In this document: piece after piece, positions 1-13,226 of the stretch
How the letters are laid out: each line of letters opens with the position of its first letter
Numbering within the stretch: position 1 is the stretch's first letter
Assembly (NCBI GenBank): GCA_003157575.1
Contig: PMKA01000159.1
Location: 7,875-21,100 of the forward strand
Source of the DNA: Opitutia bacterium
Lineage (GTDB): Bacteria; Verrucomicrobiota; Verrucomicrobiia; Opitutales; Opitutaceae
Direction of reading: 5' to 3'
DNA length: 13,226 nt
Position numbers and translations under genes: made by a program
The notes under the pieces: model-generated
Told to the model about the DNA's origin: nothing
The model's input: the letters and a program-made list of their open reading frames with translations, nothing else
The model's database searches: none

Positions 1-471
1 CGCGTGGCTTCCCGCCGGCAGGGAAAGGAGCAGGAACCCGTGGTGCGCGCCTGGAATGGCCCCCGGATGGTCGCCGAGATCCCGGTCTCCCCAGTGCCCG
101 GAAAGCCCGGCGAATACGAGGGGGTGCTTTCGTTCGGACAACCAGGGATGTACAGGCTGGAGACCTCCCTCGGATCGTCTCAGCCGCCGCTTGTCTATGA
201 AACGCTCGCCATCAGGCCCCCTCCCTCGGAAGGAGACGACGTCAGCCCGGATCGGGAATGGCTGGCCGGACTGGCGGCGGCCACTGAAGGGAAGATCGTT
301 TCAGAATCCGAACTCCCTGCATTGTTCCGGCCACCGCCCGTGACCGAGGAGTCGATCGCCCTCGAAAACCCCCAGTGGATCTCCGCCTGGGATCGCGGGC
401 ACTGGCTGGTTGTAGTCGTGCTGCTGTTCGCCACGGAATGGGTGATCCGGCGGCGCCATGGTCTGATCTGA
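1..471 (+). CDS. C-terminal part of a membrane protein, probably the VWA/amidotransferase-like member of the operon (5' end outside window)
   Basis: The frame is open from the first base, so the N-terminus lies outside the window; the GTG at position 4 is not taken as the start. The visible ~156 residues show a beta-rich segment (a GEYEGVLSF stretch, then PGMYRLE) that reads like an immunoglobulin-like or late extracytoplasmic domain. A single hydrophobic helix (GHWLVVVVLLFATEWVI) follows and the protein ends in the basic tail RRRHGLI. A last helix plus short basic cytoplasmic tail is typical of the large VWA or glutamine-amidotransferase-like membrane proteins encoded beside DUF4175/DUF4159 genes. 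The next gene starts 7 nt after the stop, so the two are almost certainly co-transcribed. The family assignment is inferred from context and C-terminal architecture only, because no catalytic or MIDAS motif is in view. Confidence 0.6.
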   Translation, partial: RVASRRQGKEQEPVVRAWNGPRMVAEIPVSPVPGKPGEYEGVLSFGQPGMYRLETSLGSSQPPLVYETLAIRPPPSEGDDVSPDREWLAGLAAATEGKIVSESELPALFRPPPVTEESIALENPQWISAWDRGHWLVVVVLLFATEWVIRRRHGLI

Positions 472-478
472 CGCAACG

Positions 479-3241
479 ATGTCCGCCATCCAGGAAAAGT
501 TCATCCGGGCACTGAACCGCCAGTTGTGGATCTGGCGGGGCGGAACGTTGTTGTGTTCGCTGTTCCGGGTGCTGCGATTCGCCGTCCTGATCCTGCTTGC
601 GGCGGTTCTAGGAGACTATTTTCTGGCGCTCTCGTCACAGGCGTTGACGGCGCTTGATCTGGCGGCAGCGGGCGGATTGGCGTTCGTCGTCCTGTGGGAG
701 TCGATCAGCGGCCTGGCCCTGTCTCGCAAGGAGGCTGCCGGGCGTGTCGACCAGCTCCTCTCCAACAGGCGCCAGCCGGTGCTGACCGCGTACGAATTGC
801 ATGCGGGCTCCCCGGCGGAGGAATGGAGCCGGTTCCTCGTCGAGAGGAGCCTGCGCGAGGGAGAATTCGTCCTCGCGGGCGTGAGTCCCGGAACGATGTT
901 CCCGTGGGCCGATTGCCGGCGGCAGTTCAGGTTGCTGCTGCTCGCCTCGGCGCCCTTTGCCACGCTGTTTCTGTGGCAGCCGCATGCCGCCCGCATTGTG
1001 CTGGCCCGGTTGCTTCACCCCGATCGCGATCTTCCTCCGTATAGCGTCTATTGCTTCCACGTTTCGCCCCAACCTGCCCGGGTCGTCTACGGCGGCTCCG
1101 TCGAGCTGACGGTTGAGATCGCCGGAGCCCCGGTGCGTCATCCGGTTGTGTTGCTCACCCGCAAGGGCGAATACATGGACCAGAGCAGCTGCTTCCGACA
1201 GGGCGAAACGGTCTTCTCCCAGCGGCTTGAGAAGGTGGTTGACCCGGTCGAGTTCTGCTTCACGACAGGTCGGGCGAGGAGCGCCTGGCAACCCGTTGAG
1301 CTTCTCCTTCAGCCCAAGGTCGCGATGCTGAAGCTGGCCGTGGAGCCGCCGGCCTACACGGGCCTGCCTCCAACCGAGACGGTGGTGAGCCAGGAGACCA
1401 TTGAAGGCTACGAAGGCTCCATGGCCCGGCTGCAGCTGACCAGCAACCGGCCCCTGTCGCGGGGCGTGCTTACGCTCGCGCCGTTGAGCGGCGTGGACGA
1501 AACCCGAACGGTCGTGGGCCGCACGGCCGGCCTTCACACCCTCGAATTTGCGTGGGAGATCAGGCTGCCGGCGCGGGTCGAGGTGCGTGTCGAGGACGTG
1601 CGGGGCACACCGATGGCGGAGCCTCTGCAGCTGGTGCAGAAGCTCATTCCCGACCGGCCGCCGGAGGTGGTGATAACCAGCCCCGCTCCTTACACACTGG
1701 CCACGCCATCTGCCGTCGTCTCCCTGCAGGCCGCGGCGTCGGACGATCTTGCGCTGCGCGGTGTGACGCTGGTGCGAACGATCGCAGGCTACTGCGACCG
1801 CCCCCTGCCTCTTGGCCCGCTCGTCGCGGGCAGACAGTTCTCCGTCCAGCGCGATTTGGACCTCGGCAAGATCGGAGTGCTGCCGGGCCAGGTCATCGAG
1901 CTGTTTCTCGAGGCGCGGGATTTCAACCCCGGACGCATCGGCGTCAGTTCGTCGGACATCGCGCGGATCGAGATCATCTCCGACGAAGAATATGCCGGGA
2001 TGATCCGCGCCAACGAGACCCTGGCGCAGTTCGCCGAGCGGTACCGGGTCGTCCAGGAGGTGTTCGATGCGTTTCGCCGGACCGTCGCCGAACTTCTCCA
2101 GGAAACGCGCAAAGAACAGCCGGACCACGACCGGGTCAACACCCTGCTGTATCAGGCGCGTGCACAGAACCGGCAGGCGCAGGAGTTCTTCAGGCAGCTC
2201 GCCTCTGAATTCCAGGCCTACAAGCTCGAGGAGGGCTGGAAGCAGGCGCTGGAGGGGATCGCACAACGGTTCGAGGGCCACGCCAGCCGCCTTCAGGGAA
2301 TGACCGCCGGAACCCCCGGGCTGCCCGGGGCACTCGACCGGCTGAAGAAGGATCTGGAGCTGGACGCCAAGCGCATCGCCCCGCAGGCGCAATTGACAGA
2401 GGAGTTTGTCAAGGCCGGGCAGGTGATGGAACACTCAGCGCTCTTCATGCAGATATTGAACAGGCAGCGCGATCTCACCCGCGTGCTGCAACGGCGCTCA
2501 TCGGACGCCTCCGACCCGATCAGCCTGCGCGACAGCGGGATCAAGGAAGCTGAAATCCGCAGGGACCTGATCGCCCTGTCCGGGAGCCTTGAGAAGGCGG
2601 CGGAAACTCTTTCGGAGGACAAGGAGTTCGATGAGCTCTGGGCAAGCTCGATGGAGTTCGCGGGAAGACTCAAGTCCTGCGGCGCCGACGCGCTGATGCA
2701 GAACGCGGTGGATGCAGCCCGGAACGACGACGGAGCGGAGACGCTTCAAAACGCCCGTCTGGCCAAGGAGAAGCTCGAAGAGTTTCTCTCGCAAAGTGAA
2801 AACTCCCCGTTCGGCGGAATGTGCCGCGGCGGCATGAAGTTCAACGTCCGGGATGAACTGCGCGATTCGCTGGGCGAGCTGCTGGCTTCGTTGATGAGCG
2901 GCGGACGCGGCGGCAATGGCGGCAGGCCGGGGGACGGCTCCGCTCCGGGCGGCGGAGCGGGCGACGCCAGCAACGGTTATTCCACTCCTTCGCTAACGCG
3001 CATAAATACGCCGGTGATCGGCCCTCCCCGCAGTCAGTTCGCCCCGGGCGGGCCGGCACAGGGCAGCCAGGCCCAGGGCGGCCAGCGCGGCGCAGGCGGC
3101 GTGCAAACGGAGCAGGCCGGGACTTCTGCCGGACAGGCCGGCCCGGATCTTTCCGGCCCGGGACGTGAACCGGAGCCGGCGCCCGAGAAATACCGTCAGG
3201 CGCTCAAACGCTACTTCAGCCCGTCGGAAAAGAAGCCATGA
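479..3241 (+). CDS. DUF4175-like membrane protein with long coiled-coil and Gly/Gln-rich tail (920 aa)
   Basis: The N-terminus has two adjacent hydrophobic helices (about residues 33-53 and 55-75) and a third near 150-166, followed by a LLHPDRDLPPY segment. Beta-rich extracytoplasmic domains occupy roughly 180-500, with phrases such as VYGGSVELTVEIAG and FLEARDFNP. A long helical, charged, coiled-coil-like region spans about 510-790. A Gly/Ala/Gln-rich low-complexity stretch follows, and the end (EKYRQALKRYFS) is a conserved-looking helix. This order of membrane anchor, beta domains, coiled coil and low-complexity tail matches DUF4175-type proteins known from alphaproteobacteria and PVC bacteria; the molecular function is unknown. 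The ATG at 479 follows the previous stop by 7 nt without a strong Shine-Dalgarno. The stop overlaps the next start in ATGA, which suggests translational coupling. A structural or scaffolding role in the envelope is inference. Confidence 0.75.
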   Translation: MSAIQEKFIRALNRQLWIWRGGTLLCSLFRVLRFAVLILLAAVLGDYFLALSSQALTALDLAAAGGLAFVVLWESISGLALSRKEAAGRVDQLLSNRRQPVLTAYELHAGSPAEEWSRFLVERSLREGEFVLAGVSPGTMFPWADCRRQFRLLLLASAPFATLFLWQPHAARIVLARLLHPDRDLPPYSVYCFHVSPQPARVVYGGSVELTVEIAGAPVRHPVVLLTRKGEYMDQSSCFRQGETVFSQRLEKVVDPVEFCFTTGRARSAWQPVELLLQPKVAMLKLAVEPPAYTGLPPTETVVSQETIEGYEGSMARLQLTSNRPLSRGVLTLAPLSGVDETRTVVGRTAGLHTLEFAWEIRLPARVEVRVEDVRGTPMAEPLQLVQKLIPDRPPEVVITSPAPYTLATPSAVVSLQAAASDDLALRGVTLVRTIAGYCDRPLPLGPLVAGRQFSVQRDLDLGKIGVLPGQVIELFLEARDFNPGRIGVSSSDIARIEIISDEEYAGMIRANETLAQFAERYRVVQEVFDAFRRTVAELLQETRKEQPDHDRVNTLLYQARAQNRQAQEFFRQLASEFQAYKLEEGWKQALEGIAQRFEGHASRLQGMTAGTPGLPGALDRLKKDLELDAKRIAPQAQLTEEFVKAGQVMEHSALFMQILNRQRDLTRVLQRRSSDASDPISLRDSGIKEAEIRRDLIALSGSLEKAAETLSEDKEFDELWASSMEFAGRLKSCGADALMQNAVDAARNDDGAETLQNARLAKEKLEEFLSQSENSPFGGMCRGGMKFNVRDELRDSLGELLASLMSGGRGGNGGRPGDGSAPGGGAGDASNGYSTPSLTRINTPVIGPPRSQFAPGGPAQGSQAQGGQRGAGGVQTEQAGTSAGQAGPDLSGPGREPEPAPEKYRQALKRYFSPSEKKP

Positions 3242-3900
3242 AGACATGCATTTTGTGTTTCTGCCTGCTGGTTGCATGCGCGGCGCTGCCCGCGACCGCC
3301 CGGGCCGGCGCCATTCAATGCGCCAACCTGATCTACGGCGGCACGCACACCTCGCGTTGTTTCAGCGACGAGTTTCTAAGCGCCGTCCAGAAGGAAACCA
3401 CCATCAGCACCGAGCGGCGTTTCAAGACGGTCAAACTCGCCTCCGACGAGCTGTTCAAATACCCGTTCACCATCCTGACAGGCGAGAAGGACTTCCATTT
3501 CACGCCTGAGGAGCGCAAGAACCTGAAACGCTACCTGGAGAGCGGCGGTTTCCTCCTTGTATCAGCCGGGTGCTCCAACCAGGAGTTCGACCGGGCGTTC
3601 CGCCGCGAGATCAAGTCGGTGTTCGAGGACAGGGCGCTGGAGCCCCTTCCGGACGACCACACCATCTACCACACGGTCCATCAGGTCGCTGGGCTCCAGA
3701 CCAAGGGGCATGGCTACGGCGCAAACGAAAAGATCGCGCTGGAAGGGCTGAACATCGGGGGCAAGACGGTCCTCGTCTATTCCAAGCACGGCCTGAATGA
3801 CACCGCACACACCGAGGGCTGCTGTTGTTGCGGCGGAAGCGAGATATCCAACGCACTGGAGGTTAACGTGAACATCTTCGTTTACGCACTCCTGTATTGA
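3238..3900 (+). CDS. Secreted DUF4159 family protein with a CCCC cluster (220 aa)
   Basis: The gene starts in a 4-nt ATGA overlap with its upstream neighbour, behind a purine-rich GGAAAAGAAG stretch that can serve as a ribosome-binding site. The N-terminus is a signal peptide: K2, a hydrophobic core, then either an LVAC lipobox (residues 11-14) or signal peptidase I cleavage after ARA. The mature part matches DUF4159: an NLIYGG opening, the TFxLTG-type strand FTILTGEKDFHF, the ERKNLKRYLESGGFLLVSAG core and the closing NIFVYALLY. DUF4159 has a flavodoxin/amidotransferase-like fold and unknown function. Residues 195-198 are four consecutive cysteines (GCCCCGG), and C28 and C37 also fall in the mature chain. 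These thiols are notable because the next gene encodes a periplasmic thioredoxin/DsbD-type fusion. The family call is firm; a redox link is inference. Confidence 0.85.
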   Translation: MKTCILCFCLLVACAALPATARAGAIQCANLIYGGTHTSRCFSDEFLSAVQKETTISTERRFKTVKLASDELFKYPFTILTGEKDFHFTPEERKNLKRYLESGGFLLVSAGCSNQEFDRAFRREIKSVFEDRALEPLPDDHTIYHTVHQVAGLQTKGHGYGANEKIALEGLNIGGKTVLVYSKHGLNDTAHTEGCCCCGGSEISNALEVNVNIFVYALLY

Positions 3901-3902
3901 GC

Positions 3903-6900
3903 ATGGGCAGATCCAATTCCATCACCGGCCTTTTCCTCGGTCTCCTGCTGGCGGCGACGGCCGGAGCCGTGATCCTGCCGACGGAGACGCAGCCATCGCC
4001 CGCGCCGCCTTCCGCCAGCGGCGGGACGCCAGATCTTCTCCGGCAATTCGGAGTGGAGCCGCTGAAGTGGCTGCCGGATCTGGATGCCGCCCAACGTCTC
4101 GCGGCCAGGGACAACCAGCCCGTGATGGCCTATTTCTTCTCGCCGCTTTGCAGCTGGTGCCGGCGGATGGACCAGGAGATCTTCGCCTCTCCGGAAATCC
4201 GCAAACGCCTGGCGGCATTTGTCCTCGTCAAGATAAACATCCTGGAAGACGAGAAGACTCCGGCGCGCTTCCGGGTGCGCGCCACGCCGACGCTGGTGTT
4301 CCTCAGCCCCGAGGGCCGTGAGTCATTTCGACTGACGGGCTTCACCGAGAACGCCGCGTTGCTCGCGACGCTGGATGACATCACGGCCAACCACATCCAA
4401 TCCCGGGACGAGCGAATCCAGTCCCTGATCCAGCAATTGCGCGGGCAGAAGATGCCGGAGCAGGACTGGCCGGAACTCATCGTGGCAATGGGGAACGACC
4501 GGTACCGGGAGAAGATCCGGCAGGCGCTCCTCTCCTCCCGTCCGCCGCCCCGTGCGGCCCTGGTCCGGCTGCTGCAACATCCGTTGCTGGCCGTCCGGCT
4601 CGGCGCGCTTGAAGCGCTGGAAGAATTCAGCGGCGACGATTTCGGCTTCAACCCCTGGCTCGACCAGCCGGCGGACAACAAAGACCCGCTGCAACGATGG
4701 CTGGCGTGGAGCGCCGCCGGCAACCTGGACAACGTGGAACAGTCCGCGCCGTCGAGCGTCCTCTCCGCCGGGGAGATCGCGGATTCCTTGCAGGACTTGA
4801 TGGCCGAGGATTCCGACCGCTCCGCACGCGCCCGGCGCATGCTGGCGAGAGGCGGCGCCTCCTGCCTTGAAGGCATCGATGCGTTCCGGGCGGCTCATCC
4901 CAACCTGCCTGCGGGCTCCGAAAGCAGGCTGCGTGAGTTGCGCTACACGCTGCTCCTGCCGGGCGTCCACGGTCTCGATTCTTCGACCCTCGCCCACCGC
5001 CTGGTCTTCGGCAACATGGACATCCGACTCGACACCCTGAGGGATGCCGCTGCGGCGCGCCTGCGGGCCGTGCCGGTTATCGGGGAGTTCCTCGGGGATC
5101 CCGAGCCACTGGTGCGCGAAACCGCCGTCGACGCGCTCGTCACTGCGGGCGGCCGCGGGGTCGTCGGAATGCTGGAGACGCACCTGAAGTCGGAATCTGA
5201 CGCAAACGTCATTTACGGCATCCTGCGGCAACTGGGGAATCTGCCCAGCAAGAAGGGTCTGGGCATTCTGCTTCAGTACCTCGGCAATTCGAACGAAGAC
5301 CTGGTCATCGTGGCGCTTGAAAGCATCGGCAAACTGGGCTCCGACACTGTGGCCGTGCAGGTGGGCAAATGCCTGGACGACTCCCGATGGAGGGTTCGCG
5401 CGGCGGCCCTGAAAACGGTGGAGGTGCTGAAGCTCCAATCGCTGGCGCCCAACGTCACCACCCTTCTGGACGACAAGGATGAATTCGTCAGGAACGCAGC
5501 CGTGGATGCGTTGGCCAAGCTTGGCGCGAAAAAAGCGCTTCCGAAATTGGAGGCGCTCTTCGCCCAGGATGACGGTCTCAAGGGCTCCATCGTAAACGCC
5601 CTGTACGCCGCGGACATCACCATCCCTGCTTCCATGGTGAAAGCGCTGTCGGACAGGCCCCCGTCGGTCCTGTTGGGCGTGTTGGACCATATCGAGACCG
5701 CGGATCCGAAAGTGGCGCCGCTGCTCACCGCATTCGCAGCCCACCCGGATGCCGATGTGGCCTGTGCCAGCCTGCAGTTGATTGCGCGCTCGGGAACGGA
5801 ACACGAGCCGTACGAGAAGGCGCTGGCAGAACAGATCCAATCTGGGGACCGCCGGCGCGTGCTGACCATCATGAATTCGCTGCGTGTCGACCTGAAGCAC
5901 CTGGCCCGCTTCAACCCGGGTGTTCTCAAGGCCGACCTCGACGCGCCGGCAACCGTCCCGGCGACCTCCAACTCTGCCGCCCCGAGCGATGCAACCGCGG
6001 ACGTTTTTGCGGCGTTTGACTCCCCCGCACCCCCGTCCCCGGCTTCGGAGAACAGGGGCAACCCGGTCGACGATGTCTTCAGCGCGTTCGACGGCGGGTC
6101 CAAACCCCAGGAAAGCTGCCTGGACACCCTGGTGCGCATCGGCAAACAAACCCTTCAAGGCTCCGGCGATGGAGAACTAAAGGCTGCGGCAGCCCGGATG
6201 CTGGTCCATCTGGGCCAGGTCGAGGGAATTCCCCTGACCATGAACACGCTGCCGCTGCTGGCGGAGGAACAACGCACTGCGCTCGCCGAGAACGCGAGCC
6301 GGGTGCGCAACCGCGACGGTCTGCCGCTCATCCGGCGCCTGTTGGCCGATCCATCGACCGAAGTGCGGGAGGCCGCCTGCCAGGCCCTGGTGGACGACGG
6401 AGCGACCGAATCCTGCACGCAGTTCCTTCTGTCCGAGCTGGAGCGCAAGGAGGCCCTGTTGAAAGGTCACGATGCATATTCCGCCCTGCAGTCCGCGTTG
6501 TCCCGGCGAACCGGCAAAACAACCATCGCCCGGACGGTCCATCGCTGGTTGAAAGACCCCCACGACGAGGCATTGCACACGCTTGCGCTCATCCTGGTCG
6601 CCAGGGTCTGGGCGCCGGAGAGCAAGGACCTGGTCGAGCCGTTCCTCGCGTCGGCCAACCCGTGGCAGCGGCGCGCGGCCTTCTACGCCCTGGGCAGGAA
6701 CGACCGGCCCCGCTTCCTTAAAGACGTGAACCTGGCAGCCATGGACAGCTCGGAATTTGTGCGGGAGGTGGTCCCTTACGTTTTGATGCCGGCCGGACAG
6801 GTTGCGGGGAATTTCGCCCAATATTTCGACGATCAGCTGCAGTCGTCGACCCGCGATTTCTCCCCTTCGAGCCGCTCGGAGGAGAGCCCTCTCCCGGGCG

Positions 6901-8381
6901 AGGCCCTGGCCGCCTTGCGCACGTTGGCCCTCGATCGCTCCGAGCGGGTGCGCTTCTCCGCCCTGTTCTGTCTGATTACGCAAGAGCAACCGGTGGATCT
7001 GGGGGAAGTCGTCAAATCGCTGGAGAAAATGCCGCGCGACAGCGAACTCCTGGAGAGCTTCTCGGGATACGTGCTGCAGGCGTATGCCACCATGGGCCAG
7101 GAATTCGCCGTGGTGCTGCCCTACCTGGACATTCGACACAGTTATAACGAGGAACGGGCCAGGGAGGTTTACAAACACTTCGGCGTTGTTGAAGACGAGC
7201 CCCTGGCTCCGCCGGTCCCGCCGGCGGGCAAGACGTCCCCGCGCGTGGTTGCCTCCTATGTGGCGGCTCCGACAGCAGCGCCGGTCCGGCCGCAGCGGCC
7301 GGAGGATTTCCGCATCGTCTTTTTCAGAAAGCCGGGCTGCAAGGAGTGCGATGCCGTGGCGAGGAAGCTCGAGCAGCTCAAGGAGCCGTTTCCTCATCTC
7401 AGCGTCCTGGAATACGACATCAACAAGACTGCGTCGGTGCTCTTGAACGAGAGCCTGAGCAAGCGCTTCGGAGTCCCTCCCGGCATCCGGCTGGTGGCGC
7501 CATCGGTGTTCTCCGGCGGCGGCTATCTGGTCAAGGACGACATCACCATGGAACGGCTGGGCCAGATGCTCTTGCGCGCCGGCGCCACGCCGTCCGCCGA
7601 CTGGCTGGTGGTGCCCCCGGAAGATCTCGCCGCGGCCCGCCAGGATATTGCACAGCGTTACGAGGCGACCGGGCTCGGCCTGATCCTGTTTGCCGGGTTG
7701 CTCGACGGCATCAATCCCTGCGCCTTTGCCACCATCATCTTCCTGCTCTCCTACCTTCAGGTGAGCCGCAAGTCGCCGCGCGACATTCTCCAGATCGGCT
7801 TCGCCTATATCAGCGGCGTCCTGCTGGCCTATTTCGTGATCGGCCTGGGTCTGGCAAAAGTCGCCGCAATGGCGATGCGCCTCGGCTGGGCCGGAACGCT
7901 CCTGACCTACGCAATGGCGGCATTCGCACTTGTCATCATGGCGCTGAACATCCGCGATGGCTTCCGCTGCCGGCGCGGCCAGCTTGCCGAGATGACCCTG
8001 CAACTCCCCGACGCCCTCAAGAGCCGCATCCACCAGCTGATCCGCCACAGCGTCCGCCAGGCGCATTTCATCCTCGTGGCCTTCGCCCTTGGCGTGGCCA
8101 TCTCATTCCTGGAGCTGGCCTGCACGGGCCAGGTCTATCTTCCCACCATCACCTATATGATCCAGCAGGGTGAGACGCGCGCGGTGGCGAACCTGCTCGT
8201 TTACAATCTGGCCTTCATCCTGCCGCTGATCGTCGTTTTCGGACTGAGCTACTCGGGGCTGCGAAGCGAGACGCTGCAGGCGCTGCTCAAACGACGCGCC
8301 GCCTGGGTGAAATTCGGGACCGCGATCTTCTTCCTGGTGCTTGCGGTGTTCGTCGTATATGGGCACCGATTGGTTGACTGA
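3903..8381 (+). CDS. Thioredoxin-HEAT repeat-thioredoxin-CcdA/DsbD transmembrane fusion (1,492 aa)
   Basis: Numbering is from ATG 3903, 2 nt after the upstream stop; an in-frame TTG at 3897 (TTGA overlap) is the alternative start, and neither has a clear Shine-Dalgarno. A signal peptide (about residues 1-22) precedes a thioredoxin-like domain with C83-S-W-C86 and a cis-proline at P129 in ATPT. HEAT/Armadillo-like helical repeats fill about 195-665. A Pro/Ala/Ser linker with two DVFxAFD motifs follows (about 670-740), then more HEAT repeats to about 1090. A second thioredoxin fold carries C1146-K-E-C1149 and a likely cis-proline P1200. From about 1256 there are six membrane helices with the CcdA/DsbD hallmarks N-P-C1273 and L-A-C1407-T-G. 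In DsbD/CcdA such paired membrane cysteines carry electrons from cytoplasmic thioredoxin to the periplasm. I infer a self-contained reductase whose HEAT scaffold holds clients or partners. Confidence 0.9.
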   Translation: MGRSNSITGLFLGLLLAATAGAVILPTETQPSPAPPSASGGTPDLLRQFGVEPLKWLPDLDAAQRLAARDNQPVMAYFFSPLCSWCRRMDQEIFASPEIRKRLAAFVLVKINILEDEKTPARFRVRATPTLVFLSPEGRESFRLTGFTENAALLATLDDITANHIQSRDERIQSLIQQLRGQKMPEQDWPELIVAMGNDRYREKIRQALLSSRPPPRAALVRLLQHPLLAVRLGALEALEEFSGDDFGFNPWLDQPADNKDPLQRWLAWSAAGNLDNVEQSAPSSVLSAGEIADSLQDLMAEDSDRSARARRMLARGGASCLEGIDAFRAAHPNLPAGSESRLRELRYTLLLPGVHGLDSSTLAHRLVFGNMDIRLDTLRDAAAARLRAVPVIGEFLGDPEPLVRETAVDALVTAGGRGVVGMLETHLKSESDANVIYGILRQLGNLPSKKGLGILLQYLGNSNEDLVIVALESIGKLGSDTVAVQVGKCLDDSRWRVRAAALKTVEVLKLQSLAPNVTTLLDDKDEFVRNAAVDALAKLGAKKALPKLEALFAQDDGLKGSIVNALYAADITIPASMVKALSDRPPSVLLGVLDHIETADPKVAPLLTAFAAHPDADVACASLQLIARSGTEHEPYEKALAEQIQSGDRRRVLTIMNSLRVDLKHLARFNPGVLKADLDAPATVPATSNSAAPSDATADVFAAFDSPAPPSPASENRGNPVDDVFSAFDGGSKPQESCLDTLVRIGKQTLQGSGDGELKAAAARMLVHLGQVEGIPLTMNTLPLLAEEQRTALAENASRVRNRDGLPLIRRLLADPSTEVREAACQALVDDGATESCTQFLLSELERKEALLKGHDAYSALQSALSRRTGKTTIARTVHRWLKDPHDEALHTLALILVARVWAPESKDLVEPFLASANPWQRRAAFYALGRNDRPRFLKDVNLAAMDSSEFVREVVPYVLMPAGQVAGNFAQYFDDQLQSSTRDFSPSSRSEESPLPGEALAALRTLALDRSERVRFSALFCLITQEQPVDLGEVVKSLEKMPRDSELLESFSGYVLQAYATMGQEFAVVLPYLDIRHSYNEERAREVYKHFGVVEDEPLAPPVPPAGKTSPRVVASYVAAPTAAPVRPQRPEDFRIVFFRKPGCKECDAVARKLEQLKEPFPHLSVLEYDINKTASVLLNESLSKRFGVPPGIRLVAPSVFSGGGYLVKDDITMERLGQMLLRAGATPSADWLVVPPEDLAAARQDIAQRYEATGLGLILFAGLLDGINPCAFATIIFLLSYLQVSRKSPRDILQIGFAYISGVLLAYFVIGLGLAKVAAMAMRLGWAGTLLTYAMAAFALVIMALNIRDGFRCRRGQLAEMTLQLPDALKSRIHQLIRHSVRQAHFILVAFALGVAISFLELACTGQVYLPTITYMIQQGETRAVANLLVYNLAFILPLIVVFGLSYSGLRSETLQALLKRRAAWVKFGTAIFFLVLAVFVVYGHRLVD

Positions 8382-8498
8382 ACTGCAATTTCCCATGACT
8401 GGCTGCGTTGAAAAACGGCCCGCGGCGCCGCAGGAAAGCCCTCCGTGCGGCAACCGGCCGAATTCATGGGCGTGCACACACGAGACCGGACGTCACTC

Positions 8499-8657
8499 AT
8501 GAACAAACTCTGCATCTTCGTCGCCTCCGGCGTTTTCAGCTACGCCGGTTGGTACCTGGGCGAGCCGCTCGGGCTCGGCTGGGCCATCGTCATCAGCAGC
8601 ATCGGCGCCCTCGTCGGCGTCTATGTCGGCTGGAAGATCGCCCGGCGCTTCGAGTGA
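8499..8657 (+). CDS. Small two-helix membrane protein (52 aa)
   Basis: This is a 52-residue protein with two hydrophobic helices (about residues 4-20 and 27-46). They are separated by GEPLG, and the second is glycine-patterned (GALVGVYVGW) before a basic-acidic tail ending IARRFE. The pattern resembles a widespread family of tiny uncharacterised inner-membrane proteins. The ATG at 8499 is preferred over an in-frame GTG at 8445, because the extra 18 residues are hydrophilic and precede a natural MNKLCIFV membrane start. It lies 117 nt after the thiol-redox fusion on the same strand and could be co-transcribed or have its own promoter. Function is unknown. Confidence 0.72.
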   Translation: MNKLCIFVASGVFSYAGWYLGEPLGLGWAIVISSIGALVGVYVGWKIARRFE

Positions 8658-8823
8658 TCGGCCCGCATTGCTGAAGGCAGGTGCTTCCGCCCCTAGCGCA
8701 GTGCCCCCTTGCCCGCAGGGGAATCTGCGGTCATGTCAGCGGTCACCGACCGCCACTCGTAATGGCTGCGGTTTCGGGATTCATTGACCAACGCTGCTGC
8801 CACATATCAGTCGATGCCAGAGA
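8658..8823. other. Convergent intergenic gap with two short hairpins
   Basis: This is the gap between the convergent small membrane gene and the DUF2971 gene. It contains an inverted repeat CCCCT/AGGGG (8705-8721, 7-nt loop) and a tighter one, GCGGTC-ACC-GACCGC (8739-8753). Either could help end transcription from both sides, but neither has a T-run on either strand, so an intrinsic terminator is not established. No gene is seen. Confidence 0.35.
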
Positions 8824-9702
8824 TCACAGGTTCTGGATTTCGAGCTGGTTTTCAGTTCCTGCATCTGGTGTTTGGCGGGCCAAAGCAAGAGGCACGACTG
8901 AAAGACGGCCTATCCCGTGAAGCAGGCGCTTTACGCGAGGATCCAATTTGTCTCCCAAGAGGATAATACGGCTTGGAGCCGGAAGATCGATAAAACGATC
9001 CCCTCCATCGGGATAACCAACGGCCTGCGATTGGTCTTCGATCCTAAAATTCGGAGCCCATCTCTCCATAGGTATGCCCGGCCATTCGGCATTCTGAGGC
9101 TCCTTTAGCTGCAAACTCACTAGGCGCCATTCTCGTTCGTATTCCCAAGGCCTCAACTTGTGACACGCCATCCGTAAAAGAACCGCTCCCAGCCGCTCTG
9201 GTGCACCCTGAAGAGGTTCGTTCGCATCATACAACTGGTCGTCATATATGACAGGGTGAATACCTGGCGCACATTGATCGCTCAGCATTAGCTCATCCGT
9301 CCTGAATTCAAGGCAACATCCGTGAGGACGATTTGCGTAGTGGGCCCACATGAGGACCAATCGCGGGTCCTCGCAAAGCGCCGCGCAGTGGACTTGCTTC
9401 TCCAGATAAAGATTTGCAACCGCCGCAGACCGCATAACGGTCCTGTATCTTCCGGCATCTGTAAGGAACTTGCACTCGTAGGGGTCATTGAGTTGCTCAG
9501 GCCGAGCCATATAGGTTTGGCCAGTGATCAGCTCTTCAAGGCCATATCTAGAAAACGACCTGTAGCGATAAAGGAACTCCACCTTCGCGAGCATTTCCTT
9601 TTTCAGATGCAACGCAGCGGCTCCATCTCCCTTGAGCAGATGCTCGAAATAGAGCCTCCGCAGCTTACTCGCGTCGGCTGCTGATGGCGACCGTTCAGTC
9701 AT
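8824..9702 (-). CDS. DUF2971 domain protein (292 aa)
   Basis: This matches the DUF2971 family by its ordered landmarks: FLYRYRSF (residues 43-50), the RPEQLNDPYEC block (about 67-77), LMWAHYANRPHGCCLEF (117-133), and KLRPWEYEREWRLV (182-195). DUF2971 proteins are of unknown biochemical activity and occur scattered in genomic and defence islands. The length is normal for the family. A helical N-terminal extension of about 40 residues precedes the domain. The ATG at 9702 is 38 nt downstream of the DUF1828/1829 stop, so this is the last gene of a three-gene minus-strand cassette. No strong ribosome-binding site is visible. Whether it is an effector or an accessory part of the cassette is unknown. 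The family call is confident and the function is not. Confidence 0.85.
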   Translation of the reverse strand: MTERSPSAADASKLRRLYFEHLLKGDGAAALHLKKEMLAKVEFLYRYRSFSRYGLEELITGQTYMARPEQLNDPYECKFLTDAGRYRTVMRSAAVANLYLEKQVHCAALCEDPRLVLMWAHYANRPHGCCLEFRTDELMLSDQCAPGIHPVIYDDQLYDANEPLQGAPERLGAVLLRMACHKLRPWEYEREWRLVSLQLKEPQNAEWPGIPMERWAPNFRIEDQSQAVGYPDGGDRFIDLPAPSRIILLGDKLDPRVKRLLHGIGRLSVVPLALARQTPDAGTENQLEIQNL

Positions 9703-9740
9703 AGAACTCTTCTACAAAAGAGGACCGTCCAGCGCATGTT

Positions 9741-10517
9741 TCACCCCTGAACCGCTTCCTGGAGATAGGCTGCAATGCGATCCTTGTTCGTGCCGAGGCT
9801 GCTGAACTGCTTTTCGCACATGTCGCTGAACCGGGCGAGCACATTGCGGTTTACCTCCTCCTGATCCTCGAAGATGCCGAGGGATCGGTGCGGTATCTTC
9901 CATCGTTCGAACTGGAGCAGTGAGATTGTCGCATCGCGGACCTTGTCGTCACTCGGCAAAGCGAAAACCATCAGAGGCTTTGCCATGCCGTTGACGCGGC
10001 AATCCACGACGTATTTCCCTTCGGAGTCATGTTGCGGTTCGCACCAGTCAAAGGTCCGACGGCCTTCGGCTACCGTGGACTCGAGGAGATTGCGGAAGTC
10101 CTCCAGAAAGGTGGACCTGACCCGCTCGCGGGAGAGGTAGGTAACGTCCGATATCTTCAACAGGGCCTGAACAAAGCTGAAGAGCGCGTCGCCGTATCGT
10201 TCCTCCGGAATGGCGAGCCGAAGTTCGCCCTCCCGGTCTTCGACCGAGAATGCGGAAAGAGCGTTGCTGACGATCTTCTGACGGTTGCCTTTCTGGAGGT
10301 CCTTTTCCTCGAGATCGTAGGTAAGGTGCATGTAGGTGTGCCCTTCGTCGGACAACACCCAACCATGAGTCTCGCGCTTAAGCACAATGGCAAGGTGATC
10401 GCCGTCCTCGAACAGGAAAGGCGTAAAAACGCGAAAACGATTTATCCCTTCGCCAGCGAGGCGAATCGTCTCGCCGACCTTGCGACGGAAATCGATCTCG
10501 ATTGTCTCGATGCTCAT
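9741..10517 (-). CDS. DUF1828/DUF1829 domain protein (258 aa)
   Basis: The N-terminal half has the DUF1828 signature: FTPFLFEDGDHLAIVLKR (residues 31-48) followed by WVLSDEGHTYMHLTY (53-67). These are usually written as 'TPF..DGD.i.iyl' and 'lsD.G.t'. The C-terminal half, about 130-255, resembles DUF1829, with a YVVDCRVNG strand and KPLMVFALPSDDKVRDAT. This two-domain layout is common in bacterial and phage-borne homologues; no activity is established. The gene starts 15 nt after the DUF6978-like stop, so the two are probably one transcript. The start ATG at 10517 lacks a clear Shine-Dalgarno, which is compatible with translational coupling. The pairing with a DUF6978-like gene recurs in my recollection of bacterial genomes, which suggests a functional pair. 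A toxin-antitoxin or defence role is inference. Confidence 0.82.
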   Translation of the reverse strand: MSIETIEIDFRRKVGETIRLAGEGINRFRVFTPFLFEDGDHLAIVLKRETHGWVLSDEGHTYMHLTYDLEEKDLQKGNRQKIVSNALSAFSVEDREGELRLAIPEERYGDALFSFVQALLKISDVTYLSRERVRSTFLEDFRNLLESTVAEGRRTFDWCEPQHDSEGKYVVDCRVNGMAKPLMVFALPSDDKVRDATISLLQFERWKIPHRSLGIFEDQEEVNRNVLARFSDMCEKQFSSLGTNKDRIAAYLQEAVQG

Positions 10518-10532
10518 GGATTAACCCAATGG

Positions 10533-11033
10533 TCAAAATAGTTCTGCCTGATCATTGGCGGGAAGCTCGAAGGCGCAATCTTGGATCAGACAACGGAGCG
10601 CCCCATTAAAATCCTGGTAACGGTTGCTCGGCTCCGCAAAAGAATCCTCACGAAAACCGGATCGCTGATATCGCTCCGTGGCCCGATGGATGTGGAAATC
10701 GTAAAAGACCTGTGTTTCGAGCATGTTCGTATGCTCGTGGCTCTTTCCGTTGTAACGGCAGAGACGGAACAGAGTATTGGACTGATTTGGGAATGCTGCC
10801 AGGATCGCCGAAAAATCGAGAGGATTGATCGCCGACTGACGGAGAATCAGCCGATACCTTCCACCCGAGGCCCCATTGATATCGAGTTCGCGTTCGCGGT
10901 GGCCTCGTTTGAGTTTGGTTTGGACGCGGGCGCGGTAGTCCGACGGGAGCGGTTTCGGCTCCGCCAGCAATAAGATGATCTCTCCATCGGTGAGCACAGG
11001 AGGCATTGGTCGAAATCGGCCGCGACTGAACAC
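10533..11033 (-). CDS. DUF6978-like protein (166 aa), first gene of the cassette
   Basis: The protein has an N-terminal helical/basic part with an ELDINGASGGRYRL strand (about 49-62). A His-rich core follows: FRLCRYNGKSHEHTN (89-103), then FYDFHIHRATERYQ (110-123), with H99, H101, H114 and H116 clustered. It ends with ALRCLIQDCAFELP (145-158). I recognise this as DUF6978-like, a family commonly found next to DUF1828 genes. The GTG start at 11033 is chosen because an AGGAGG lies 8 nt upstream; the internal ATG at 11006 has no such site. This is the best ribosome-binding site in the cassette, so it is probably the translational entry point. The clustered histidines could bind metal or act in nucleic-acid chemistry, but that is speculation. 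Confidence 0.75.
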   Translation of the reverse strand: MFSRGRFRPMPPVLTDGEIILLLAEPKPLPSDYRARVQTKLKRGHRERELDINGASGGRYRLILRQSAINPLDFSAILAAFPNQSNTLFRLCRYNGKSHEHTNMLETQVFYDFHIHRATERYQRSGFREDSFAEPSNRYQDFNGALRCLIQDCAFELPANDQAELF

Positions 11034-11227
11034 ATCTCGGTCCTCCTAAAAGCGTGATGCTGGACAATCCGTCTTGTCGATGCTGCAATTTCCCCAAAAA
11101 TATCCGACTCAAACCGTCGGGCACTTGCCAGCTGGAAAAAGGCATGCAGATTCGAGGTATGAGACTGGAGCTGTCCCTCCTCGAGGAGTTTTGCTTTGAT
11201 ACGTAGCAGTGGCCGCCGGAATGACAA
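11033..11227 (-). pseudogene. Possible 5'-truncated small gene upstream of the DUF6978-like gene
   Basis: In a frame different from the downstream gene, the minus strand reads as plausible helical protein: RIKAKLLEEGQLQSHTSNL, then AFFQLASARRFESDIFGEIA, then ASTRRIVQHHAF. The local composition is ordinary soluble protein, unlike the Arg/Ser-rich shadows elsewhere in this window. Upstream of about 11210 the frame turns Trp/Gly/Arg-rich, and only a TTG at 11225-11227 could start it. The frame has no stop before the DUF6978-like gene and runs on into it out of phase. I read this as either a small unannotated gene with a poor start or the remnant of a cassette gene whose 5' end was lost at a recombination edge. 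I do not recognise a family. Confidence 0.4.
11042..11047 (-). promoter_or_regulatory. Shine-Dalgarno AGGAGG deciding the GTG start of the DUF6978-like gene
   Basis: On the minus strand AGGAGG is followed by 8 nt and then the GTG at 11033. An out-of-frame ATG begins at 11035, two bases upstream of the GTG, but its frame does not give the DUF6978-like protein. This fixes the start of the cassette's first gene. Confidence 0.7.
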
Positions 11228-11251
11228 CCCCCGCCAGCTGGACCCAACCGC

Positions 11252-11785
11252 ATGAGCACCCCTTCAAGCATCGCCGCCGCAACCCTCGGTTTCCGTGATC
11301 TGATCCAGACCGCCCTGCCTCCGGGTGTGGAGGTTTCCACGCAGCCCCCTGCTCAGGCCGAGCAATTCTTCGAACGGACCGGACTCCTCGCGCGCGTGAA
11401 CCTGGTGCTCTATCAGGTTTCGGCCAGCCCGGGCCGAAGCAACGCCGTCCCCGCCCGCCACAGTTCCCCGGCCGAGGAAGAAAAACCGTCTGGCGGACTC
11501 GATCTCCTTTATCTTGTCACCATCTACGGGTCGGCCTCTCCCGAAGAGGAACACTCCACTGAAAGGCTCCTGGAGGCGACCTACCACGCGATTTACCAGA
11601 AGCCGATCCTCAGCTCCGCCGACCTGGGATCTGCATTGCCCGGAACCGCCGGCCCCCTCCCGAGCGTCATGGCCAGGATCGTCCCGCAAAGTCTGTCATG
11701 CGCCGAGGTGGAACGCCTTTTCTCCAGCATGCACGCAGTATACCGGCCCACCCTCGCGTACCTGGTCACATTGTCCGAGTCTTGA
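11252..11785 (+). CDS. DUF4255 (Pvc16 N-terminal-like) protein, possible contractile-injection cap (177 aa)
   Basis: The protein shows the DUF4255/Pvc16_N pattern in order. An N-terminal helix leads to PGVEVSTQPP; the strand RVNLVLYQVSAS follows (about 48-59), then LDLLYLVTIYG (84-94), EHSTERLLEATYHAIYQKPIL (100-120), and the closing LSCAEVERLFSSMHAVYRPTLAY (150-172). In Afp/PVC/MAC-type extracellular contractile injection systems this domain belongs to the tube-capping protein. Its length fits a single-domain member, so the gene looks complete. No sheath, tube, baseplate or ATPase gene lies nearby in the window, so it is an orphan here. The ATG at 11252 has no visible Shine-Dalgarno and stands right where the minus-strand cassette ends. 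A role in an active injection system is unproven. Confidence 0.8.
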   Translation: MSTPSSIAAATLGFRDLIQTALPPGVEVSTQPPAQAEQFFERTGLLARVNLVLYQVSASPGRSNAVPARHSSPAEEEKPSGGLDLLYLVTIYGSASPEEEHSTERLLEATYHAIYQKPILSSADLGSALPGTAGPLPSVMARIVPQSLSCAEVERLFSSMHAVYRPTLAYLVTLSES

Positions 11786-11848
11786 CGTCCACGGCAGCCG
11801 GAGATCCCCCTGCCGCGCGGGCAACCTGTCCGCCGTAGCCTCTCCGGT
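11786..11848. terminator. Candidate bidirectional stem-loop between convergent genes
   Basis: The 63-nt convergent gap between the DUF4255 gene and the membrane hydrolase gene holds the inverted repeat CGGCAG (11792-11797) and CTGCCG (11810-11815), with a 12-nt loop. There is no T-run, so this is only a weak terminator candidate suggested by its location. Confidence 0.3.
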
Positions 11849-12367
11849 TCATCTGGGCGCAGATCTCTTCACGCTCGCCAGGATCGCCGAATCGAATCGC
11901 GGTGCGACAAACTCGAACGGTGTTCTTTTCTGCCAGACGGCGATCGCGATCGTCCACACCGCAAGCGTCGCCAGCGCAGCGTAATTCTGCCACGCGTCGA
12001 TCTGCCACGAGTACCGCGTAGAATACTCGGTTGACAAGAACGGCCAGAAATAGGCGATCCCCCAACCGGGTCCCGAACCGAACAGGTCCATCAAGAGATG
12101 AAGATGGAACAACGCCATCAGAAGGAGGACCATCAACGGCCGGCATCGCGCGGGCCACCGGATCAGAAGCGAGGAAGCCGCAGCAAAAAGAAGGTTGTGC
12201 GCCAGGACGTGGTGATAGTCATAAACCGCCTGGACTCCACCGACGATGCTGAGGCCGTCGACGTCGGGCAGCAGCGAAACGCCAATGCACAATGCCCGTT
12301 CCTTGGGCGACATTGGAAGACTGCAGCCGACGCACCATCCCGCAAGCGCATGGGTCAGAAGATGCAT
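11849..12367 (-). CDS. YdjM/DUF457-type membrane-bound metal-dependent hydrolase (172 aa)
   Basis: The motif order is that of the LexA-binding, inner-membrane-associated putative hydrolase family (YdjM/DUF457). It begins MHLLTHALAGW with H2 and H6, then LLPDVDG with D35 and D37, then YHHVLAHNLL with H52, H53 and H57, then FHLHLLMDLF with H88, H90 and D94. These His/Asp residues are the presumed metal ligands. Hydrophobic helices cover roughly 20-45, 56-70, 77-97 and 128-146, so it is an integral membrane protein. Family members are often linked to phospholipase-C-like folds, but the substrate is unknown. The ATG at 12367 gives the conserved MHLLTHA start directly. It lies 65 nt downstream of the cupin stop on the same strand, so the two could share a transcript. 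Confidence 0.85.
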   Translation of the reverse strand: MHLLTHALAGWCVGCSLPMSPKERALCIGVSLLPDVDGLSIVGGVQAVYDYHHVLAHNLLFAAASSLLIRWPARCRPLMVLLLMALFHLHLLMDLFGSGPGWGIAYFWPFLSTEYSTRYSWQIDAWQNYAALATLAVWTIAIAVWQKRTPFEFVAPRFDSAILASVKRSAPR

Positions 12368-12432
12368 CGATTCTCGGATAATTGCCTGATTCCGATCTTC
12401 ATGCTCGGGGTCAAGTGCACCGCCTCCGGCGC

Positions 12433-12762
12433 CTAATCGACAACAAACAGCTTTGCGCCCCCCGCAGTGCGCGAGCGATGCCGTTCCGCGTGATCAGCCA
12501 CCTGGTAGCTCACTCCGGGCCGAAGGACGAACTCCCTTCCATCTTCGAGTTCGGTGATCAATTCCCCTTCCAGACAGAACAGGATGTGGCCCTTCTCGCA
12601 CCAGTGGTCGGCACGATAGCCGGGCGAGTAATCGAGCATTCGCACCCGGATGGGGCCGAACTGCCGGACACGCCAGTCGGCCCACCCGGTCTCCCCGTTC
12701 CTTCTTTCAGCGGGGACGCCAGCCCAATCAGGGACTCCAAACGGCAGATCGTGGATTTGCAT
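12433..12762 (-). CDS. DHCW-motif cupin fold protein (109 aa)
   Basis: This is a small single-domain cupin. The signature is ADHWCEKGHI (residues 51-60), followed by the beta strands LFCLEGELITELEDGREFVL (61-80), SYQVADHAERHRS (85-97) and the end AKLFVVD. The family name refers to the D-H/C-W cluster seen here as D52-H53-W54-C55. H53, H59, E65, H91 and H95 are candidate metal ligands. Cupins of this size may be small isomerases, dioxygenases or sensors; the substrate is not known. The ATG at 12762 is preferred to the upstream frame opening at 12900, because the extra 46 residues are Arg/Pro-rich and unlike the family, whose members begin with M-[QR]-[IF]-x-D-like segments. Confidence 0.85.
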   Translation of the reverse strand: MQIHDLPFGVPDWAGVPAERRNGETGWADWRVRQFGPIRVRMLDYSPGYRADHWCEKGHILFCLEGELITELEDGREFVLRPGVSYQVADHAERHRSRTAGGAKLFVVD

Positions 12763-12860
12763 ATGGTTTTTCGTCCAAGGTAAAAAACGAGGTGTGAGCG
12801 CAGGCCGGCGTGTCAAGGGATTACGTCCCACTATGCAACCAATCGTCACGGACCCCTGAC

Positions 12861-12891
12861 GCCGGAGTAGCCGGGGAGGGAAACCTCCGGC
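12861..12891. repeat. Two mutually exclusive hairpins sharing one arm
   Basis: GCCGGAG (12861-12867) is perfectly complementary to CTCCGGC (12885-12891). The same right arm can instead pair with GCCGG plus AGG (12870-12879, with two unpaired G), closing a GAAA tetraloop (12880-12883). It lies about 100 nt upstream of the cupin start on the minus strand and upstream of the dehydrogenase promoter. Its role is unknown. Confidence 0.5.
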
Positions 12892-13045
12892 CGTCCCCAT
12901 CCTCTCTCACCGCCCAGCCGCCCAGTCCACCCCAAGCCCCAAAACCTGATTCCGTCCTGGCCTCGCCCTTCGAACAAGTGCCACCGCGTCTGCCCGACAA
13001 CGGCGCCCGGGGCCGATTTGACTCCACCATCATGTGGGCTCCCTT

Positions 13046-13054
13046 TGCTATAAT
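13046..13054 (+). promoter_or_regulatory. Extended -10 promoter of the alcohol dehydrogenase gene
   Basis: TGC followed directly by TATAAT (13049-13054) is a perfect extended -10 element for a sigma-70-type factor. It lies 36 nt before the ATG at 13091, giving a short leader of about 30 nt. A TTGACT at 13018-13023 is 25 nt away, too far to be its -35, and extended -10 promoters do not require one. Confidence 0.7.
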
Positions 13055-13090
13055 GTCCAATTGCCCCTCCACCAATCTCACGCCACAGCC

Positions 13091-13226
13091 ATGACTGCGA
13101 AAATCAGAGCCTATGCCACGACCGGTCAGGGAAAACCGCTGCAGCCGTTTGAATTCGATCCCGGCCCGCTTGGCGACGAACAGGTCGAGATCAAGGTCAG
13201 CCATTGCGGCATCTGCCATTCCGACC
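13091..13226 (+). CDS. Zinc-dependent alcohol dehydrogenase, MDR family (N-terminal 45 residues, 3' end outside window)
   Basis: Only the first 45 codons are present. The segment reads MTAKIRAYATTGQGKPLQPF, then GPLGDEQVEIKVSHCGICHSD. The last eight residues form the catalytic-zinc signature of medium-chain zinc alcohol dehydrogenases, with C39 as a zinc ligand and H43/S44/D45 of the H-[ST]-D motif. The FEFDPGPLGDEQVEIKV phrasing fits the cinnamyl-alcohol/YahK-like branch that reduces aldehydes with NADP(H). The exact cofactor cannot be read because the Rossmann fold is outside the window. It has its own extended -10 promoter just upstream and is divergent from the cupin gene. A link to the cupin is not evident. 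Confidence 0.9.
   Translation, partial: MTAKIRAYATTGQGKPLQPFEFDPGPLGDEQVEIKVSHCGICHSD

Follow-up and report, generated by a model that had tools for sequence, protein, structure and literature searches.

DsbD, ScsB and CcdA share a six-helix membrane domain with one cysteine in TM1 and another in TM4, and these are the features we used for comparison with the protein described here. The second set of described systems that bears on this locus is that of the Bat proteins and their MoxR partners. One study of Bat proteins (PMC3557215) recounts an early proposal that they reduce damaged periplasmic proteins or export reducing power, reports that bat deletions in Leptospira biflexa gave no oxidative phenotype, and calls Bat function elusive. 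A second paper states that the reducing-power idea lacks direct proof and describes Rhizobium leguminosarum mutants with altered envelope and morphology (PMC5700661), and a third describes stress phenotypes for moxR and batA mutants of Riemerella, in which deletion of moxR raised and deletion of batA lowered oxidative resistance (PMC11834572). Searches of the open-licence literature returned no description of DUF4159, no description of an architecture that combines HEAT repeats, glutaredoxin and CcdA, and nothing relevant on a link between selenoproteins and MoxR; on thioredoxin-like selenoproteins in Verrucomicrobia they gave a single paper, which concerns a kinase-like selenoprotein; for MoxR together with CcdA, DsbD or thioredoxin, there was no MoxR among the matches listed.

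Here we analyse a 13,226-nucleotide stretch of bacterial DNA (the window, meaning the stretch at its full length) that contains a gene for a protein of unusual domain composition. We consider it fairly likely that this protein is a DsbD-like conduit that would feed electrons to a thiol or selenol site in the DUF4159 protein of a Bat-like system, where the direction of flow, the contact between the two proteins and the client are our suppositions. The gene occupies positions 3903 to 8381 on the plus strand and specifies 1,492 amino acids that, as judged from the reading frame, Pfam matches and homologues, comprise a signal peptide (assigned by eye), a thioredoxin domain, a HEAT solenoid, a glutaredoxin-like domain and a CcdA-like domain. 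It begins with ATG and contains no internal stops; an in-frame TTG at 3897 is a possible earlier start that would add two residues. A preliminary description had claimed that the whole frame encodes one polypeptide, and this held up: a search with the entire protein gave 195 homologues, the first ten of which are 50–100% identical to it over at least 94% of the query (the first being the window's own protein). The existence of full-length homologues rules out that a frameshift has joined separate genes.

The N-terminal thioredoxin domain (approximately residues 65–156; 4095 to 4370, plus strand) includes CSWC at 4149–4160 and matches Thioredoxin_2 (8e-13, residues 69–158, numbered from the TTG). 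It is followed by a HEAT-repeat region with approximate boundaries at 4410 and 7239 (plus strand) that matches HEAT_2 (PF13646, 1.6e-34) and PF02985 (6e-21) and is presumably a solenoid. The glutaredoxin/thioredoxin-fold domain (7308 to 7586, plus strand), with CKEC at 7338–7349, matches Glrx-like (5e-6, residues 1139–1185, again numbered from the TTG), and the membrane domain spans 7617 to 8372 (plus strand). The six cysteines singled out earlier are indeed where they had been placed, with codons at 4149 (C83), 4158 (C86), 7338 (C1146), 7347 (C1149), 7719 (C1273, in the motif NPC) and 8121 (C1407, in LACTG). The two thioredoxin folds had been said to be separated by about 1,000 residues of HEAT repeats; the HEAT region and the spacing of 1,060 residues between CSWC and CKEC agree with this, but the HEAT profiles span parts of the region only, and it includes a Ser/Pro/Ala-rich insert (approximately residues 690–760, delimited by eye).

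Judged by its predicted topology and by alignment, the membrane domain appears to be related to that of DsbD and CcdA. AlphaFold2 (AF2) modelled it as six helices (mean pLDDT 89; the helices were read from the model by us) with breaks at NPC and ACTG, and the pair of cysteines in TM1 and TM4 that typifies the DsbD/CcdA type was found as C1273 and C1407, both of which are kept in 120 of 120 listed homologues. A Pfam search gave no match to PF02683 for the membrane domain of the window protein; among 62 members of the family, DsbD_2 matched nine and DsbD_TM (PF02683) two, the window protein itself not being one of them. Alignment with DsbD by hhalign (P 0.0019, probability 14%) placed NPC on the LMPC of DsbD, with only 61 columns aligned. 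Foldseek and VIA searches with the membrane part gave lists filled by thioredoxins, with no CcdA match, and a PDB sequence search with alignment A2 yielded 46 chains with E values of at most 1, the best being 0.0024; nearly all of them have thioredoxin- or glutaredoxin-like names, and there is no CcdA or DsbD membrane domain among them. We also entertained the idea that the domain is an exporter of the LysE/ArsG type whose thiols are regulatory. NCBIfam ArsG is matched by 56 of the 62 members, far under its cut-off (28.5 bits for the window protein against 200), and SfLAP by six; nevertheless, the invariance of C1273 and C1407, the helix breaks at NPC and ACTG, and the matches to DsbD_2 and DsbD_TM all speak against an exporter, which we regard as very improbable.

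Which parts of the protein are constant can be read from the 120 listed homologues of the 195, to which the following counts refer. C1146 and C1149 are, like the membrane pair, cysteines in every one of them. The N-terminal thioredoxin domain is present in 54; the remaining 66 lack the full domain, a portion of which is present in 13. Among the 54 that bear the domain, 50 have both cysteines of the CxxC, three have SxxC and one has neither. Thus CKEC and the membrane domain form the invariant core, to which the CSWC thioredoxin domain is an optional addition. The preliminary description had envisaged a thiol relay from C1273/C1407 through CKEC to CSWC, with the HEAT solenoid positioning or gating the distal thioredoxin or a client, and had named loss of the CSWC or CKEC cysteines in homologues as grounds for refutation. 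The cysteines of the first leg are conserved throughout; by that condition the CSWC end is optional and would apply only to those relatives that have the N-terminal domain, and the solenoid may have such a role. Note that C1356 (7968 to 7970, plus strand), at the end of TM3 on what is by topology the predicted cytoplasmic side, is a cysteine in 54 of 54 listed homologues with the N-terminal domain and in 2 of 66 without it. We discounted this association as evidence of coupling because in a quick tree C1356 changes once and the thioredoxin domain three times, which makes it a clade effect.

A genome scan revealed at least 574 relatives, the best 80 loci of which were kept. Thirty of these are of the HEAT type (28 full-length and two cut by contig ends) and belong, to judge by their record titles, to Verrucomicrobiota sensu lato, in which we count Kiritimatiellota and Lentisphaerota; the titles of L054 and L059 say no more than 'uncultured bacterium'. 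The other 50 encode glutaredoxin-CcdA proteins without a long HEAT region (L111, described below, apart); most of them stem from Chloroflexota, Atribacterota, Cloacimonadota, Thermodesulfobacteriota and further phyla. A simple ORF caller gave 47 ORFs from 46 of these 50 loci (one locus was counted twice and four gave none), and 37 of the 47, mostly from other phyla, carry an extra CxxC 80–220 residues ahead of the glutaredoxin CxxC, with a third CxxC in eight of the 37. That both thioredoxin folds come before the membrane domain had been put forward as a peculiarity of this protein. This order does depart from that in classical DsbD, but thioredoxin folds in this position are ordinary in the wider family, since most non-HEAT relatives have the extra upstream CxxC; the special features are the HEAT insertion and the operon. 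No shared operon was seen around the non-HEAT relatives, the largest common neighbour being an ABC-transporter-like gene at six loci, and genes of the MoxR/DUF4159 operon were not found near the thioredoxin-glutaredoxin-CcdA proteins of other phyla except in the fusion at L111.

Even the DUF4159 gene is absent from all five other genomes of the same genus, and none of 56 other relatives examined has a full-length protein of the 1,492-residue type. The contig of the window may be misbinned, or the operon may have been acquired horizontally; for an RpoB comparison bearing on misbinning, the window's genome (G000, 74% complete) gave no match to PF00562.

The operon around the gene, absent from the preliminary description, supplies the DUF4159 protein as its likely partner. 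The order of genes is MoxR, DUF58, BatA, VWA, DUF4175-like, DUF4159 and the HEAT-Grx-CcdA gene. MoxR (PF07726), DUF58 (PF01882), BatA (PF07584, 'Aerotolerance regulator N-terminal') and most of the VWA gene (PF13519) are found on the same contig before the start of the window, which begins with the C-terminal end of the VWA gene (1 to 471, plus strand). Then come a 920-residue membrane/coiled protein (479 to 3241, plus strand) that has no significant Pfam match of its own but resembles, over 243 residues (25%), the DUF4175 portion of the L111 fusion, and the DUF4159 protein (3238 to 3900, plus strand), which has 220 residues, a signal peptide, the conserved cysteines C28, C41, C112 and C195–C198, the last four within GCCCCGG at 3817–3837, and is the probable redox partner. 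Adjacent genes for a MoxR AAA+ ATPase, DUF58 and BatA/VWA, the hallmark of Bat or MoxR-VWA operons, are thus found on the window's contig and are kept in relatives. DUF4159 lies directly upstream in 27 of the 28 full-length HEAT-type loci; MoxR is found in 22 of the 28, that is in 22 of the 23 with at least 9 kb of upstream sequence, and five of the six lacking it have less than 4.2 kb upstream. At the sixth (L044) the HEAT-Grx-CcdA protein is present and the operon genes are absent in 24.5 kb. These linkage counts are not independent, because the loci share descent within a single phylum. Identity to the window's sequences by tblastn in the 27 loci with DUF4159 was 52–83% for DUF4159, 39–72% for the Grx-CcdA part and 24–62% for the N-terminal HEAT part.

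After the operon the GC content drops from 64.6% (1–8381) to 58.2% (8382–13226), and the genes in 8382–13226 encode DUF2971, DUF1828, a Pvc16_N protein, a YdjM-like protein and a weak cupin match. The contig (L032) contains two 2-base runs of N, at contig positions 2538–2539 in MoxR and 7873–7874 in the VWA gene just before the start of the window.

We then considered DUF4159 from the side of its cysteine motif. In 288 sampled Verrucomicrobiota genomes the exact pattern GCCCCGG occurs at 35 places in 34 genomes, 25 of them inside DUF4159 genes (including G258, which is L040) and ten outside. With G241, which has NCCCCGG, at least 26 genomes have a CCCC-type DUF4159; this is a lower bound, because the pattern misses variants of the motif and G241 was met by chance. 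A redox gene lies directly downstream in 23 of the 26. The next gene is a full HEAT-Grx-CcdA gene in 14; in G210 it is the thioredoxin-HEAT part up to the end of the contig, and the Grx-CcdA end lies on a different one. At L175, L176 and L183 it encodes a HEAT-Grx protein in which one to three TM helices replace CcdA, and in four genomes it encodes a tetraheme cytochrome c554 protein (G280, G282 and G285 by Pfam, G273 by four CxxCH motifs). In G280 and G273 a separate thioredoxin gene follows the cytochrome gene, and G280 also has a separate HEAT protein. In G234 (L178, 9270–10261) MsrB and MsrA genes follow directly. The three genomes with no recognised redox gene in this position are G069 (an abhydrolase), G290 (none) and G241 (L185), where a HEAT-Grx protein is present but unlinked. 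As a control, we inspected 30 DUF4159 loci without CCCC, and the downstream ORF, chosen mechanically and in some cases doubtfully, contained CxxC at one of them (L166); L159 has a DsbD-looking gene further downstream, and MoxR falls inside the 1.5 kb examined at 11 of the 30. The counts in this survey, too, come from genomes of common ancestry and are not independent. Outside this set, in the Planctomycetota genome G344, a CCCC-type DUF4159 precedes what appears by eye to be the same kind of tetraheme protein. In all, a four-CxxCH protein directly follows a CCCC-type DUF4159, with HEAT-Grx-CcdA missing there, at five loci: L179, L180, L181, L257 and L213 (four Verrucomicrobiota and one Planctomycetota). 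Since the proteins of L175, L176, L183 and L185 retain HEAT and glutaredoxin but have one to three TM helices at their end in place of CcdA, the conduit may in addition be provided in trans, by a protein of its own.

A direct physical connection between the parts is seen at L111, on the contig of a Planctomycetota metagenome-assembled genome, where a single ORF of 1,290 residues joins, in operon order, DUF4175, a DUF4159 that has GCCCCGG, an intervening region, a glutaredoxin domain with CPNC and a CcdA-like domain. Residues 33–195 of this fusion are DUF4175 (PF13779), the Glutaredoxin match there having an E of only 0.02. No further ORF fused in this way occurs in the 28 other genomes examined from its class (1 of 29 in total). 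These findings bear on the idea that the protein is a general periplasmic reductase that replaces DsbD or CcdA in cytochrome c maturation or in the reduction of bulk disulfides, its place in the operon being incidental. Tetraheme cytochrome genes do adjoin DUF4159 in G273, G280, G282, G285 and G344, and the relatives of other phyla show no common operon, as would suit such a role. However, DsbD_TM proteins occur elsewhere in all 11 genomes tested (G000 and ten others), and the linkage in 27 of 28 loci together with the fusion argues that the neighbourhood is not incidental, so that a general reductase seems to us improbable. Note that, given these same DsbD_TM proteins, the operon does not strictly need a conduit of its own.

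Evidence of another kind for a redox role of DUF4159 comes from relatives in which the fourth cysteine codon of the CCCC motif is an in-frame TGA. In 288 genomes from a single order, the pattern TGYTGYTGYTGA (TGY-TGY-TGY-TGA) occurs at ten places; three are outside DUF4159 (L248, L254 and L255) and seven are within it, in genomes G369, G370, G526, G591, G505, G515 and G381. The TGA lies at 9857 in L047, 9841 in L058, 5298 in L249, 5447 in L250 and 6021 in L253, and on the minus strand at 12847 in L251 and 12754 in L252. All seven genes are followed by a full HEAT-Grx-CcdA gene. A stem that can form 21 bases after the start of the TGA has five core pairs in all seven, whereas among 45 distinct cysteine orthologues none has the five pairs and one has four. 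Bacterial SECIS hairpins carry a GU-containing loop at about the distance seen here. Two of the pairs are changed on both sides, a number reached by 144 of 500 shuffles, and the covariation score was reached by 1 of 500, in a set of seven coding sequences from close relatives; sliding the hairpin partners abolishes the pairing. Both Sec-candidate genomes tested have a tRNA-Sec (60.4 and 57.1 bits against an Rfam cut-off of 47). In ten other genomes, two scores were clearly above the cut-off (G333 and G374), two just above and six below, and 5 of 14 control genomes were above it. G333 and G374 have a clear tRNA-Sec, yet cysteine rather than selenocysteine in DUF4159, and the window's own DUF4159 likewise has cysteine at the fourth position. 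On this sequence evidence the fourth residue of the motif in the seven relatives is probably selenocysteine, which would make DUF4159 a new selenoprotein family and would mark this position as a probable catalytic or resolving residue.

Selenocysteine also helps to weigh an explanation in which the CCCC site of DUF4159 binds a metal or an Fe-S cluster and the conduit keeps its thiols reduced so that MoxR/VWA can load a client. Four consecutive cysteines conserved together with C28, C41 and C112 would suit such a site, and Sec can ligate catalytic metals. A probable Sec at one position would, however, be unusual for a structural site, and the TGA was seen only at the fourth position: of seven inspected places where one TGA stands elsewhere in the motif (L228 and L263–L268), none is in DUF4159. 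Among the inspected places with several TGA codons (for example a 20-mer repeated in more than ten genomes) there is likewise no DUF4159. Part of the Bat literature does postulate that the MIDAS site of Bat proteins receives its metal ion from MoxR (PMC3557215), and we hold a metal site to be unlikely, though less so than the other alternatives.

We favour instead a conduit that serves DUF4159, because of the conservation of the cysteines, the apparent kinship with DsbD/CcdA, the operon linkage, the L111 fusion, the redox neighbours and the signals of selenocysteine. The protein would act as a transmembrane thiol reductase of the DsbD kind, dedicated to a single operon. Electrons would pass from a cytoplasmic dithiol (presumably thioredoxin, by analogy with DsbD) to the membrane pair C1273/C1407 and from there to the periplasmic CKEC glutaredoxin domain, which would hand them to DUF4159 directly or, in some lineages, by way of the CSWC domain on the HEAT solenoid. 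The end point would be C195–C198 (CCCC, or CCC-Sec) of exported DUF4159, a putatively redox-active site that the MoxR/DUF58/BatA/VWA system might use as a reductase or for the loading or repair of a client. The strongest form of this proposal, namely a Bat-type operon with a complete outward electron line to an undescribed thiol/selenol enzyme (DUF4159) driven by a dedicated HEAT-scaffolded DsbD-like protein, we advance only tentatively. If true, an operon that carries its own DsbD-like conduit beside an exported DUF4159 protein with cysteine or probable selenocysteine offers a concrete path for the reducing-power proposal for Bat proteins, which becomes directly testable because the conduit adjoins the exported protein in one operon; Bat-like operons of the window's kind may send reducing power outward. 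DUF4159 would then be a candidate family of redox enzymes with Sec-containing members.

Set beside known systems, the protein resembles DsbD, ScsB and CcdA in its six-helix domain with cysteines in TM1 (NPC) and TM4 and in having thioredoxin folds on the same polypeptide. It differs from them in the glutaredoxin-like domain directly before the membrane domain and the inserted HEAT region, and its family is scarcely matched by PF02683. In classical DsbD the order is alpha domain, membrane beta domain and C-terminal thioredoxin gamma domain, whereas here the membrane domain comes last, after both thioredoxin folds, and a DsbD alpha domain is absent from the Pfam matches. The thioredoxin-glutaredoxin-CcdA proteins of Chloroflexota, Cloacimonadota, Atribacterota, Thermodesulfobacteriota and others have a Grx-CcdA module 34–43% identical to that of the window protein and share its invariant CxxC and both membrane cysteines (62 rows of alignment A2), but unlike it have no long HEAT region. 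For DUF4159, NCBIfam gave two stray matches among the 47 members scanned and no model of the family; its structural match is Hoch_4089 (PDB 4i66). Finally, the window's operon has MoxR, DUF58, BatA and VWA in the same order as Bat (Bacteroides aerotolerance) and MoxR-DUF58-VWA operons, and differs from them by carrying the DUF4175-like gene, DUF4159 and the thiol conduit.
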